Source of the DNA: a virus | DNA: 37,974 bases | Strand: one strand, 5' to 3' | IMG/VR virus record: IMGVR_UViG_3300032213_000108 | Span: 1-37,974 of that record | Shown here: positions 11,475-37,974 of the stretch, piece after piece | Layout of the letters: every line of letters begins with the position of its first letter | How positions within the stretch are numbered: the first letter of the stretch is position 1 | The notes under the pieces: generated by a model | The model's input: only the letters and a program-made list of their open reading frames with translations | Database searches by the model: none | What the model was told of the DNA's origin: nothing | Position numbers and translations under genes: made by a program

Positions 11475-13271
11475 TTATCCTCTGCCTAATACGTTAGCTA
11501 AACCAAGACCCGCTAAACCTAAACCACCAATTTGTGATGCCATAGATGGCGCAGGAGTATATGCAACTTGTGTTGAACCAAGCGCACCAGCGTTACCACG
11601 TAGAATATTACCATAATATTCAAGTAATGTTCTTTGATAGTTTTGAGCTTCTTGGAATTTTTGATATTCAAGATCTCTAATTTGTTGATTAAGCGCTTGT
11701 TTTTCTTCAGCAGTTGCAGCTTGCGCTTTAAGTCTTTCAAGATTAACTTGTTGTTCAGTAGCACCAAGAGCGCCGAGCGCTTTAGAACCTTCAAGCGCAG
11801 TAGAGAGCCCAGCTAAACCTACATCTTTACCTAAACCAGCAGCATATTGTTTGCCTTGTTGAGATAATTGTTGAGCTTGTAGAGCAGCAGCTTGGTTTGC
11901 TTTTTGGGCTTCTAGTGATTGTCCAGCACCTAATTGTTGTACACCAAGTAGAGCAGCTAAGTTTTGTTGACCTGTAGTTAAACCTGCTTGTTGGTTAGCC
12001 AACGCTGCTTTCATCGCTTGCTCTGCACTTAAACCTTGGGTTTGTAGTTGAGCGGCTAAGTTTTGTTGTTGTGTTGTTTGTTGTGTTTGTTGGTTAGCCA
12101 ACGCTGCTCTCAATGCTTGCTCTGCACTTAGCCCTTGAGTTTGTAGTTGAGCTGCTAAGTTTTGTACGTTAGCTGCTTGTGCATTTGTTAGATTAGCTAA
12201 TTGAGCTTGTAAATTAGATTGAGTACCTAGCTGTTGTACACCAAGTTTTGCGGCTAAGTTTTGTTGACCTGTAGTTAAACCTGCTTGTTGGTTAGCTAAT
12301 GCCGCTTGCAATCCATATTGTTGGTTAGCTTGTTGTGCTTGTAATTGACGCGCTTGATCTGCTTGGAACTGTGCTTGAGCATTTTGATATGCTTTTTCCA
12401 TACCTGTAGCTTGGATATCTGCCATAGTACGTTGAGTACCACGCTCTTGTTCTGCTTGTAATAAGGCTTGACGTGCACCACCAAAAGTTCCTCGACCCAT
12501 AGCCCCTGTCATACCTGCTTGTTTTTGTAAGTCGCCTTGTAAACGCGCTTCACGTAACGCTGGATTAATGGCCGCTTGTATATAAGGACTCATGTAATAA
12601 TCCGCTGCACCTTGACCAAAATTTTGTGTTGCTATATTTGAAGCGGCTACATTTTGTGCTGGACCCATTTGATATTGAGTAAGACTAGGGTTATAAGCCA
12701 TTTGTGCTGCGTTCATTTTGTATTGTTGTAATGACGGAACATTAATATTAGAAGCCCCACTCATTTGGTAATTTGTTAAGTTTGGCGCTGCTATATTTTG
12801 CGCTTGGCCCATTTGGTAATTCATTAAGTTTGGCGCCGCTATATTTTGTGCTGATATATCACCAGGGGCATATCCTAAAGCTTTATTTAAACCCGCTTGA
12901 GAAGCACCTAGACCTGTAGCTTGTAATGCACTTAACCCTGCGCCTGCTTGACCAAATTGTCCTGGAGTTTCGAGTCCTGCAACTTGTTGTTGTATTGCTA
13001 GCTGTTCTGGAGTAAATCCTGCAATTCTTTCGCCTGTGTATGGTACATAGGGTTTAATACCAGTAACGTTACCTGATGTATCAGTAGTAAATGACTGTTT
13101 ACCAGCTTGTTTTAAAAGTTCTTCATAGAACGGTTTAGCATACTCAGGTAAGTTAGTAGAATAAGAAGTGTTGGTAGTACTAGAAGGACCCCCACCTCCG
13201 CCGCCACCAAAGCTTAATGTAAAGAAGCTGATTAAGCTTTCTACCCAATTAAACAAGTTAAACAATTTCAT
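11475..13271 (-). CDS. Gln/Ala-rich helical internal-virion candidate
   Basis: 598 residues. A short hydrophobic N-terminus (residues 4-21) is followed by a glycine run and then a region with repeated NxxxYQM-type units (IAAPNLxNYQM, about 145-205). The centre and C-terminal half (about 260-520) are very rich in Gln and Ala with longer repeats such as NLAAQLQTQGLSAEQA and ALANQQAGLTTGQQNLAA, each present at least twice; these should form long helices or coiled coils. The end is hydrophobic and Gly-rich. This composition is typical of podovirus internal core/ejection proteins that line or exit the capsid, but no family can be named firmly. It starts with a 4-base ATGA overlap with the GNAT-like gene. 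Confidence 0.6.
   Translation of the reverse strand: MKLFNLFNWVESLISFFTLSFGGGGGGGPSSTTNTSYSTNLPEYAKPFYEELLKQAGKQSFTTDTSGNVTGIKPYVPYTGERIAGFTPEQLAIQQQVAGLETPGQFGQAGAGLSALQATGLGASQAGLNKALGYAPGDISAQNIAAPNLMNYQMGQAQNIAAPNLTNYQMSGASNINVPSLQQYKMNAAQMAYNPSLTQYQMGPAQNVAASNIATQNFGQGAADYYMSPYIQAAINPALREARLQGDLQKQAGMTGAMGRGTFGGARQALLQAEQERGTQRTMADIQATGMEKAYQNAQAQFQADQARQLQAQQANQQYGLQAALANQQAGLTTGQQNLAAKLGVQQLGTQSNLQAQLANLTNAQAANVQNLAAQLQTQGLSAEQALRAALANQQTQQTTQQQNLAAQLQTQGLSAEQAMKAALANQQAGLTTGQQNLAALLGVQQLGAGQSLEAQKANQAAALQAQQLSQQGKQYAAGLGKDVGLAGLSTALEGSKALGALGATEQQVNLERLKAQAATAEEKQALNQQIRDLEYQKFQEAQNYQRTLLEYYGNILRGNAGALGSTQVAYTPAPSMASQIGGLGLAGLGLANVLGRG
11930..12310 (-). repeat. Imperfect coding repeats (GLTTGQQNLAA and GLSAEQA units)
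   Basis: Within the Gln-rich gene, two kinds of unit recur. One encodes ANQQAGLTTGQQNLAAxLGVQQLG (two copies), the other NLAAQLQTQGLSAEQAxxAALANQQ (two copies). Long stretches are near-identical at DNA level, for example near 11965-12060 and 12075-12170. They look like internal duplications that lengthen a helical rod. Boundaries are approximate. Confidence 0.7.
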
Positions 13272-13678
13272 ATATTTTTCTCCACGACGTTTGTCACGAC
13301 ATTAAAACCCATTTTTATTTTATAAAGTCTTGCTTGAGCATCTTTTGCAAACGCTCTAATCTTAGTTGCACCTTGAGACCTTGCCCAGTCCTCATATTGC
13401 TTAATGGTGTTTTCATCGAATATTCCCTTGCCGCCTACAGCTGAAGTATGGACAACTCTATTATTTGGATAACTAATAACTTCTGCCGATAAAGCACCAA
13501 TAATTTTTTCATCTTCTACAAACACGAATAAGGTTTGTTTACCTTCAGTAAGTAACATTTTTAGCTGGTCAACGCTATAATCGTCTGTCCCTGCTCCCAT
13601 CGCCCTGTCAAAAAATGTTTCTATTTTGTCCCAAACTTGATGTATATAGTTGGGATGTACTATTTGCATTTGTTTCAT
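13268..13678 (-). CDS. GNAT-like N-acetyltransferase
   Basis: The 136-residue protein has the outline of a GNAT acetyltransferase as found among phage virion genes. Features are an N-terminal helix with VDQLKMLLTEGK, two strands TLFVFVED and IIGALSAEVISYP, a central VGGKG turn where acetyl-CoA would bind, a helix YEDWARSQGA, a strand IRAFAK and a final hydrophobic segment YKIKMGFNVV. GNATs transfer an acetyl group to amines; the substrate is unknown. The gene is joined to both neighbours by 4-base ATGA overlaps, so it is translated with the internal virion proteins. The canonical Q/RxxGxG/A loop is degenerate, so activity is uncertain. Confidence 0.6.
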   Translation of the reverse strand: MKQMQIVHPNYIHQVWDKIETFFDRAMGAGTDDYSVDQLKMLLTEGKQTLFVFVEDEKIIGALSAEVISYPNNRVVHTSAVGGKGIFDENTIKQYEDWARSQGATKIRAFAKDAQARLYKIKMGFNVVTNVVEKNI

Positions 13679-36507: not shown

Positions 36508-36939
36508 TTAAGCAGCTAAGATAGCGTTACTGATTGCAATCCAAGGAGCATTCGGATTACCGTTACCACCCCATTGAACAATAGCACCAGCAGCAACAGT
36601 TACACCAGAAGCATTACCAGATACGGGTTGTGTGCCAGTACCTTTTAGTACGTGAGCAACTGCGCCATAGTTAGTAATTGAACCTTGGATACCATTAAGT
36701 TCTGGTTTAGCAGATTGAGGACCTACCCAAGCATTACCGTCGTTTGTTTCAACGTTAGGAAGAATAAAGTCAACCGCTGAAGCTGGACCACCATCAGCTG
36801 GTGATAAAACTAAAACTTGAGCACCTGCATCTAAAATTTGGTATTCGCCGCCAACGATGTCAGTTGCATAAACGTAAGTGATTGGAGTGATAAAACCCGT
36901 AAGCGAACGCCATGGGCCTGAAGCTGTAGATATAGCCAT
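36508..36939 (-). CDS. Probable capsid-associated or decoration protein
   Basis: 143 residues, beta-rich and with no Cys. Segments include GGEYQILDAGAQVLVLSPAD, AVDFILPNVETND and VAAGAIVQWGGNGNPNAPW. I do not recognise a named family. It is the first conventional structural gene after the capsid protein, has its own promoter candidate and AAGGA ribosome site, and ends at a GC-rich hairpin. These features suggest strong expression, as for decoration proteins. A head-stabilising role is inferred only from this context. Confidence 0.5.
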   Translation of the reverse strand: MAISTASGPWRSLTGFITPITYVYATDIVGGEYQILDAGAQVLVLSPADGGPASAVDFILPNVETNDGNAWVGPQSAKPELNGIQGSITNYGAVAHVLKGTGTQPVSGNASGVTVAAGAIVQWGGNGNPNAPWIAISNAILAA

Positions 36940-37007
36940 AATAATTTTCCTTCATACAAAGTTAAGTTTATCAGTTGTGTATGCATCTGCCGGGACAGTC
37001 TAATAAA

Positions 37008-37026
37008 CCGGATATACCCGGATATA
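37008..37026 (-). repeat. Tandem 10-bp repeat just downstream of the promoter
   Basis: The nine-base word CCGGATATA occurs twice with a one-base gap (37008-37016 and 37018-37026). On the minus strand it starts a few bases after the -10, where an operator or the initial transcript would lie. Confidence 0.55.
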
Positions 37027-37060: not shown

Positions 37061-37480
37061 TTATATCACGGGTTTGCGTAGGTATTCCACAGCTTTTAGA
37101 AGGAATTCTGTATTATCTTTAAAGTGCCCTAAACCTGAATTACATTGGTGACATAATAGTCCTCTAATATGTTTAGTTTTATGACAATGATCTATATTTA
37201 ACGATTCTATTCTATCCCCTCTTTTATTATCCTCCGCTTTTTTATCACATATAGCACATTTATAATTTTGTGCTTCTAGCATAGCTTCGTACTCTTGAGG
37301 GGTTATATTGTATCGTTTTTTAAAATGGCACTTTTGCCCAATGGCTTTTTGCCAGCCGTCCGGTTTAGTTTTTTTATACTCAAGAATTTGAGCATTTCGT
37401 TTTTCTTTATTTTCTTTATACCATTTTGCATGGTATTCTTTCATGTAGGCCTTACGTGCTGCTTCGTCTTTAAATGGCAT
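37061..37480 (-). CDS. Recombination endonuclease VII-like HNH nuclease
   Basis: 139 residues from ATG 37480. The N-terminus is a basic helix (ARKAYMKEYHAKWYKENKEK). The C-terminal half is an endonuclease VII/HNH zinc fold: C75-x2-C78 (YKCAICDKK), the catalytic DHCH at 97-100, C110-x2-C113 and N114 (GLLCHQCNSGLG). Such enzymes resolve DNA branches before packaging, or act as free-standing homing endonucleases. AGGAG lies 5 bases before this ATG; an upstream in-frame start would begin inside the terminator tail and is rejected. It lies between the pqqA-like gene and a promoter. Confidence 0.85.
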   Translation of the reverse strand: MPFKDEAARKAYMKEYHAKWYKENKEKRNAQILEYKKTKPDGWQKAIGQKCHFKKRYNITPQEYEAMLEAQNYKCAICDKKAEDNKRGDRIESLNIDHCHKTKHIRGLLCHQCNSGLGHFKDNTEFLLKAVEYLRKPVI

Positions 37481-37511: not shown

Positions 37512-37533
37512 AAAAAAGGGGCCGAAGCCCCTT
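37512..37533 (-). terminator. Intrinsic terminator after the pqqA-like gene
   Basis: AAGGGGC (37533-37527 on the minus strand) pairs with GCCCCTT (37522-37516) around a TTCG loop, and is followed by TTTTTT (37517-37512). The UUCG tetraloop is exceptionally stable. Confidence 0.9.
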
Positions 37534-37562: not shown

Positions 37563-37640
37563 TTACTTGTTCATCACGTACATCGTCACTTCAAAGCCAA
37601 ATCTCATTTCTGTTGCTGCTGGTTTAGTCCAAGCTTTCAT
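37563..37640 (-). CDS. pqqA: PqqA-like precursor peptide of the cofactor PQQ
   Basis: A 25-residue peptide with the hallmarks of PqqA: WTKP at 4-7, RFGFEVTMY at 13-21, and a basic/polar end (NK). E17 and Y21 are at the Glu-x-x-x-Tyr spacing that the radical SAM enzyme PqqE cross-links, after which the peptide is trimmed and oxidised to pyrroloquinoline quinone. PqqA peptides from bacteria are usually 23-29 residues, so this is full length. AAGGAG lies 8 bases before the ATG. No pqqB-E are in the window, so host enzymes would have to process it. The gene stands alone between the capsid-gene terminator and its own terminator, as an auxiliary metabolic gene or moron would. PQQ serves methanol and other alcohol or sugar dehydrogenases in the periplasm. 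Confidence 0.88.
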   Translation of the reverse strand: MKAWTKPAATEMRFGFEVTMYVMNK

Positions 37641-37672
37641 AGTAGTTCTCCTTTTGTGTTGTATTTTTAACA

Positions 37673-37716
37673 AGCTACATCGTAGCTATGCATATATTGC
37701 TCTTTTTGCGATACAA
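37673..37716 (-). promoter_or_regulatory. Weak promoter candidate and inverted repeat ahead of the pqqA-like gene
   Basis: On the minus strand TTGTAT (37716-37711), 16 bases, and TATGCA (37694-37689), a poor -10. It is followed by the inverted repeat AGCTAC-n3-GTAGCT (37687-37673). The latter may be an operator or a leader hairpin. The -35 hexamer equals that of the 15508-15536 candidate. Confidence 0.3.
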
Positions 37717-37742: not shown

Positions 37743-37772
37743 GGCAAAGAAAAACCCGGCCTAAACCGGGTT
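37743..37772 (-). terminator. Intrinsic terminator after the major capsid gene
   Basis: On the minus strand AACCCGG (37772-37766) pairs with CCGGGTT (37759-37753) around a 6-base loop and is followed by a T-rich tract (37754-37744). It lies 28 bases after the capsid stop codon. Confidence 0.9.
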
Positions 37773-37799: not shown

Positions 37800-37973
37800 T
37801 TAAGCGCCTGGTGAGCCCCACATACCGAGAGGATCTGACCAACCAAATGAATAACGCTCACGAGCCTTGTAACGAACGTTGCCTGTATCAAAATCGCCAT
37901 CCATAGATGTAGATAATGGTGTACGAACAAAGTGTTTCATGCCGTTAGGTACATCAGTTGTTAAGAAGTAAGC
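37800..37973 (-). CDS. Major capsid protein, C-terminal end (cut by the window edge)
   Basis: The last 57 codons of a gene that runs in from the right edge. The end has PNGMKHFVRTPLSTSMDGDF, then NVRYKARERYSFGWSDPLG and MWGSPGA. The ARERYSFGW(S/T)DPxG signature is one I recognise from the C-termini of major capsid proteins of podovirus-like and related aquatic phages. The gene is followed by a strong terminator, consistent with a very abundant product. Portal, scaffold and terminase genes would lie further right. Confidence 0.75.
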   Translation of the reverse strand, partial: AYFLTTDVPNGMKHFVRTPLSTSMDGDFDTGNVRYKARERYSFGWSDPLGMWGSPGA

Positions 37974-37974
37974 A

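Follow-up and report, generated by a model that had tools for sequence, protein, structure and literature searches.

PqqA is the precursor consumed in PQQ synthesis, one peptide being spent for each PQQ that is made. A viral PqqA has been described in Lake Baikal virus VP_266, a presumed methylotroph virus, and a role in supporting methanol oxidation was suggested for it (Coutinho et al. 2020, PMC7678222), and a reservoir study from 2026 lists pqqA among viral genes (PMC13188868). On the bacterial side, a 2014 study reported multiple copies of pqqA, 3 to 12 in number, where the other pqq genes occur once (PMC4109929). The published descriptions of the phages Melnitz, MEP301 and Venkman and of the MEP401/402 lineage make no mention of pqqA, and the open-licence literature yielded no account of how widespread the gene is or of its occurrence in cultured OM43 phages.

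The pqqA locus of the window

The DNA analysed here, called the window throughout, is a stretch of 37,974 bases of viral sequence. An earlier note had placed a pqqA gene at 37563-37640 and left the strand unstated; the ORF is real, and it lies on the minus strand, running from 37640 to 37563. The plus strand of this interval reads LLVHHVHRHFKAK... and is meaningless. The features of the locus are as follows.

37803..37974, minus strand: last 57 codons of the gene for the major capsid protein, truncated where the contig ends; its stop codon occupies 37800-37802
37753..37772, minus strand: intrinsic terminator in the gap between capsid gene and pqqA, AACCCGGTTTAGGCCGGGTT with a T-rich tail; hairpin retained in relatives
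37691..37696, minus strand: possible -10 box TATATG immediately ahead of the leader hairpin, proposed from leader comparison
37673..37687, minus strand: 5'-leader hairpin AGCTACGATGTAGCT; hairpins of differing sequence recur at the same place in phage pqqA leaders
37648..37653, minus strand: ribosome-binding site AAGGAG, separated from the ATG by 7 bases; retained in most relatives
37563..37640, minus strand: pqqA ORF, 25 codons plus stop TAA, encoding MKAWTKPAATEMRFGFEVTMYVMNK, which matches the PqqA profiles
37515..37533, minus strand: intrinsic terminator 3' of pqqA, AAGGGGCTTCGGCCCCTT with a T run; retained in most relatives
37061..37480, minus strand: endonuclease VII-like HNH gene, downstream of pqqA and outside the pqqA unit; the listed TTG-start ORF reaches 37513

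The HMM comparison suggested in the earlier note places the peptide above the curated cut-offs of both PqqA families, with 42.6 bits against PF08042 (E 5.5e-11, cut-off 21.1, model positions 1-19 of 19 covered) and 40 bits against TIGR02107, the NCBIfam PqqA equivalog (E 2.3e-10, cut-off 20, positions 1-21 of 21 covered), and a six-frame scan of the whole window gave this single PqqA match. At 25 residues the peptide falls within the length of PqqA (about 22-29 residues). The glutamate and tyrosine that had been claimed are both in place, E17 and Y21 with three residues between them, and these would be the residues that are cross-linked. The consensus ribosome site had likewise been read correctly. 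No match was obtained for the peptide among solved structures or for the window in Rfam. A chance ORF is ruled out by the profile scores together with the pattern of silent substitutions described below. The ORF is a genuine and constrained phage pqqA.

That the neighbour is a capsid gene could be confirmed from its last 57 codons alone by way of a relative with the full-length gene, L044: the window fragment is 98% identical to the C-terminus of the L044 capsid protein, which itself has major capsid proteins as its best named relatives. With its capsid gene cut at the contig end, the window is an incomplete virus record. The description of this region as fully packed did not hold, as pqqA occupies a gap of ~290-320 bp between the capsid stop and the endonuclease VII-like gene and is flanked on both sides by intrinsic terminators, for which reason the gap looks like a separate transcription unit. 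One terminator thus lies between pqqA and the capsid gene, the latter presumably strongly expressed. Taken together, the window pqqA looks like a self-contained unit composed of a -10-like box, a 5' hairpin, a ribosome site, the ORF and a terminator. A consensus scan for sigma-70 promoters before the window pqqA passed no pair.

The window also encodes a lysozyme, an adaptor and a primase/helicase besides the capsid and endonuclease VII proteins, which places pqqA within a genuine phage genome, as is looked for in an auxiliary gene. Bacterial contamination of the contig is ruled out by phage genes throughout the window and by the same place of pqqA in capsid relatives. A small acetyltransferase-like gene lies among the virion genes (13268-13678, minus strand).

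Farther downstream, a conserved structured RNA leader (36946-37023, minus strand) immediately precedes a gene (36508-36939) that may by its position encode a cement or decoration protein. The same leader is found in L010, L044, L071, L262, L244, L432 and others, including phages without pqqA. It has four short helices, two pseudoknots among them (CCGGG with a CCCGG loop, and CATACA with TGTATG adjoining the ribosome site). Across 41 contigs, 96.1% of cells pair against 81.0% in shuffled alignments, and changes on both sides are seen in 15 of 19 pairs (135 such cells against 39 in shuffles). It had no match in Rfam even at E 10 and is possibly an undescribed RNA family. One contig, L419, matches the window across the endonuclease VII-like stretch, where most aligned relatives have the structured leader instead; the HNH gene is perhaps a mobile endonuclease.

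PqqA in the presumed hosts

A genome scan recovered 567 stretches encoding PqqA relatives, the best 80 of which come almost entirely from Methylophilaceae (Methylophilus, Methylotenera, Methylopumilus and OM43-type strains). Many of these 80 encode MWTKPAATEMRFGFEVTMYVMNK, which is also the sequence of residues 4-25 in the phage peptide, an identity that sets the viral gene close to a host metabolic gene, again as looked for in an auxiliary gene. Judging from the peptide and from the relatives of the window, the virus is most likely a tailed phage infecting Methylophilaceae. A comparison of endolysins, which gave matches in 9 of 150 Methylophilaceae genomes at just 31-44% identity, was given no weight as to the host.

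PqqA is encoded in 149 of the 150 Methylophilaceae genomes, mostly in 2 to 12 copies (range 1-12), and strain KB13 has two copies together with no pqqB behind them. It is thus only the gene for the consumed peptide that the hosts multiply, the other pqq genes being present once.

A unit-like layout in phage and host copies

The arrangement seen in the window recurs among other pqqA copies. A terminator-like hairpin follows the gene in 86 of 161 phage copies and in 74 of 87 host copies, as opposed to 24 of 516 control ORF ends, and the strand of phage pqqA is unrelated to that of its neighbours. Upstream, 51% of 106 non-redundant phage leaders contain a strong hairpin whose end lies 15-31 bases ahead of the start codon (19 +/- 4% in shuffled sequences), and the hairpin of the window sits somewhat farther from the start codon than this usual distance. 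The phage leader hairpins have many different sequences. A TATAAT-like box is present within 22 bases before the leader hairpin in 39 of 54 cases, the shuffle comparison covering the hairpin and not the box, and host leaders show a weaker form of the same arrangement. We infer that the leader hairpin would mark the 5' end of a short mRNA; 5' hairpins of this kind are known to protect transcripts.

Conservation, gain and loss in the capsid lineage

Glutamate and tyrosine are kept in 172 of 172 phage copies, a set found with a pattern that selects for these residues. As this biases the conservation counts, they were repeated on a sample anchored on the major capsid protein (MCP), in which contigs were picked by the capsid C-terminus and the downstream region was inspected, pqqA playing no part in the choice. 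Among the 100 usable contigs, 24 carry pqqA, all at 56-64 bits, and the other 76 reach at most 7.9 bits; no decayed copies were seen among the 100. Thus, related phage contigs do carry the peptide at the same place downstream of the capsid gene, and the loss of Glu, Tyr or frame that the earlier note had named as grounds for rejection was not seen in the 172 pattern-selected copies or in the 25 copies of the anchored set (the 24 plus the window). W4, P7, G15, E17 and Y21 are kept in all 25.

In the same 25 copies, 22 codons of pqqA give pS 0.45 and pN 0.076, and the 11-codon core gives pS 0.56 and pN 0.014, i.e., a pN/pS of about 0.03. The five nearest IMG/VR copies show 3-6 base differences from the window gene, none of which alters an amino acid.

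On the capsid tree the presence of pqqA is strongly clustered, 19 of the 21 members of one clade carrying it. In 24 records from capsid relatives, HTVC027P and DSL-LC04 among them, the gene was absent; some of these records are fragments. Since many capsid relatives are without it, the lineage as a whole does not depend on pqqA, which perhaps reflects different hosts.

A filled and an empty version of the site can be compared directly. In L091 pqqA follows the capsid stop at a distance of a few tens of bases, and L438 and L451, which encode nearly the same capsid protein in flanking DNA that is 87-93% identical, are without it. The difference is one segment of ~121-124 bp comprising hairpin, ribosome site and ORF, a pattern that indicates gain or loss of a ~121-bp unit behind the capsid stop. 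As the L091 peptide, WNTPEYTEMRFGFEVTMYIANK, is of another type than that of the window, the position behind the capsid gene has probably been used by pqqA more than once.

Spread among viruses

The exact core EMRFGFEVTMY occurs in at least 120 IMG/VR stretches and a wider PqqA pattern in at least 599. A tblastn search of 50,697 phage records (E<=10) found PqqA in nine Methylophilales phage records (P19250A, Venkman, MEP301, MEP401, MEP402 and four of Melnitz), a number that refers to the records searched, the taxonomy naming further Methylophilales phages. The only other matches were to one phage from spring water and to two contigs that bear the name Acinetobacter phage. These two contigs, CAKLQF020000010.1 and CAKLQH020000055.1 ('Acinetobacter phage MD-2021a'), were dropped as viral evidence. 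In the former, fur, ppk and pqqBCDE surround the match, with pqqA preceding pqqBCDE among other cellular genes; it is evidently bacterial and looks like chromosomal DNA.

The cultured phages that carry pqqA belong to different groups (Kyanoviridae, Zobellviridae and others), and the gene is found beside recombination genes, the tail lysozyme gene or tail genes. None of the nine records from cultured Methylophilales phages annotates it as pqqA. The annotations of Melnitz and the spring phage place an ORF on the opposite strand over it, and in the other cultured phages it is left unannotated. These opposite-strand 'hypothetical proteins', at 3006-3101 in L005 (Melnitz) and 3997-4125 in L006 (ctXG6705), are probably false calls.

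We examined 51 viral records with pqqA, six of them cultured or named phages and many of them fragments. Each has one pqqA, and no PqqE scored over the cut-off in any of these often fragmentary records. The company of pqqBCDE, common for PqqA and not strictly required, was not found in the 51 records; hosts too have stand-alone copies. A methanol/ethanol-type PQQ dehydrogenase was found in one of the 51, the 72-kb contig of L039 (L475/L476, 34049-35731), which in this respect is like the Baikal virus. Grouping the pqqA-carrying contigs by shared genes gave 2, 14 or 26 groups depending on the threshold, low-complexity proteins probably joining unrelated contigs, and the independence of carriers was judged instead from the taxonomy of cultured phages and from capsid trees.

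Proposed function and alternatives

We consider it likely, with a probability of roughly three in four, that the window carries a functional phage pqqA that feeds substrate to the host PqqB-E and so sustains methanol oxidation during infection. The gene would be transcribed as its own small mRNA, with promoter, 5' hairpin and terminator. Host PqqD would bind the 25-residue phage peptide, host PqqE would cross-link E17 to Y21, and the remaining Pqq enzymes of the host would trim and cyclise the cross-linked product to PQQ. The extra pqqA would raise or maintain the PQQ supply of the periplasmic methanol dehydrogenases (XoxF/MxaF), providing energy and carbon while the infection lasts. This reading presumes that the gene is expressed in infection, that PqqA supply would be limiting there and that the phage would benefit. 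The idea of the earlier note that the substrate gene by itself could suffice gains support from viruses that carry pqqA alone, without PqqE, and from hosts that multiply pqqA beside a single pqqBCDE (PMC4109929, and the copy counts above).

We lean slightly towards a broader reading as well, namely that several unrelated methylotroph phage groups have repeatedly taken up a minimal pqqA unit because PqqA supply, and not the enzymes, limits PQQ in infection. The slight leaning applies to this reading as a whole, in which the unit taken up would consist of a promoter, an mRNA-protecting 5' hairpin, a ribosome site, 23-25 codons and a terminator.

The peptide might be processed by host PqqD and PqqE for another end, either as a decoy occupying or diverting the PQQ machinery or as a cross-linked signal or anti-competitor peptide. 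PqqA-like peptides are of the radical-SAM RiPP kind, a PqqA-annotated family was co-expressed with phage-defence systems in one study (PMC11118758), and positions 6, 8 and 23 are somewhat more variable in phage than in host copies. However, the window peptide does not depart from the host sequence anywhere in residues 4-25, and the GFEVTMY core is intact, E and Y included, although a decoy would not be required to retain the two cross-linked residues together. Moreover, the multiple pqqA copies of the hosts point to supply, and we regard such another end as unlikely.

It is quite improbable that pqqA is a passenger, that is, that small and frequent host units are gained and lost by phages without benefit. 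Its patchy presence, the clean coming or going of a ~121 bp unit and the several copies in hosts are what a passenger would show, but the low pN/pS of the core, with many silent changes and no decayed copies, speaks for selection. So do its recurrence in unrelated phage groups and its retention across the 21-member capsid clade. That the selected product is a small RNA with a 5' hairpin and terminator, the ORF being incidental, would suit the compact hairpin-ORF-terminator layout but is very improbable, since conservation tracks codon structure and the peptide, unlike the leader and the 3' untranslated sequence, does not change fast.

If PqqA supply does limit PQQ in infection, as the supply reading holds, a gene of 25 codons would let viruses steer methanol oxidation in abundant methylotrophs. 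The phage would then boost a cofactor through its raw material and not through an enzyme, which would be a general and overlooked way to push a cofactor pathway by means of a ribosomal substrate. The gene is constrained and has been missed by gene callers, and cultured phage-host pairs that carry it exist. Its breadth, its unit-like layout and this oversight make phage pqqA more than a single auxiliary gene.

Comparison with known systems

The HTVC023P/HTVC027P-type phages and DSL-LC04 have capsid proteins that are 63-65% identical, over the whole length, to that of L044. Unlike the window virus they appear to be without pqqA, which was absent from HTVC027P and DSL-LC04, both checked whole, and gave no tblastn match in any of these records. 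The cultured OM43/Methylophilales phages P19250A, Venkman, MEP301, MEP401/402 and Melnitz encode a pqqA near-identical to that of the window, but they belong to other phage groups (e.g. Zobellviridae, Kyanoviridae) and have the gene at other places of the genome.

The closest cellular counterpart is the PqqA of Methylophilaceae (PF08042/TIGR02107), with residues 4-25 identical, the same layout of ribosome site, short ORF and terminator, and scattered stand-alone copies in the hosts too. In contrast to it, the window copy lies in a phage genome behind a capsid gene and starts with MKA-W where the host peptide usually starts with M-W, and the phage copies as a group are more variable at positions 6, 8 and 23. 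VP_266 also encodes a methanol dehydrogenase, whereas 50 of the 51 viral records have pqqA without one. The same functional idea was already put forward for a viral PqqA in 2020 (PMC7678222), and the spread of viral PqqA is far wider in the present data.
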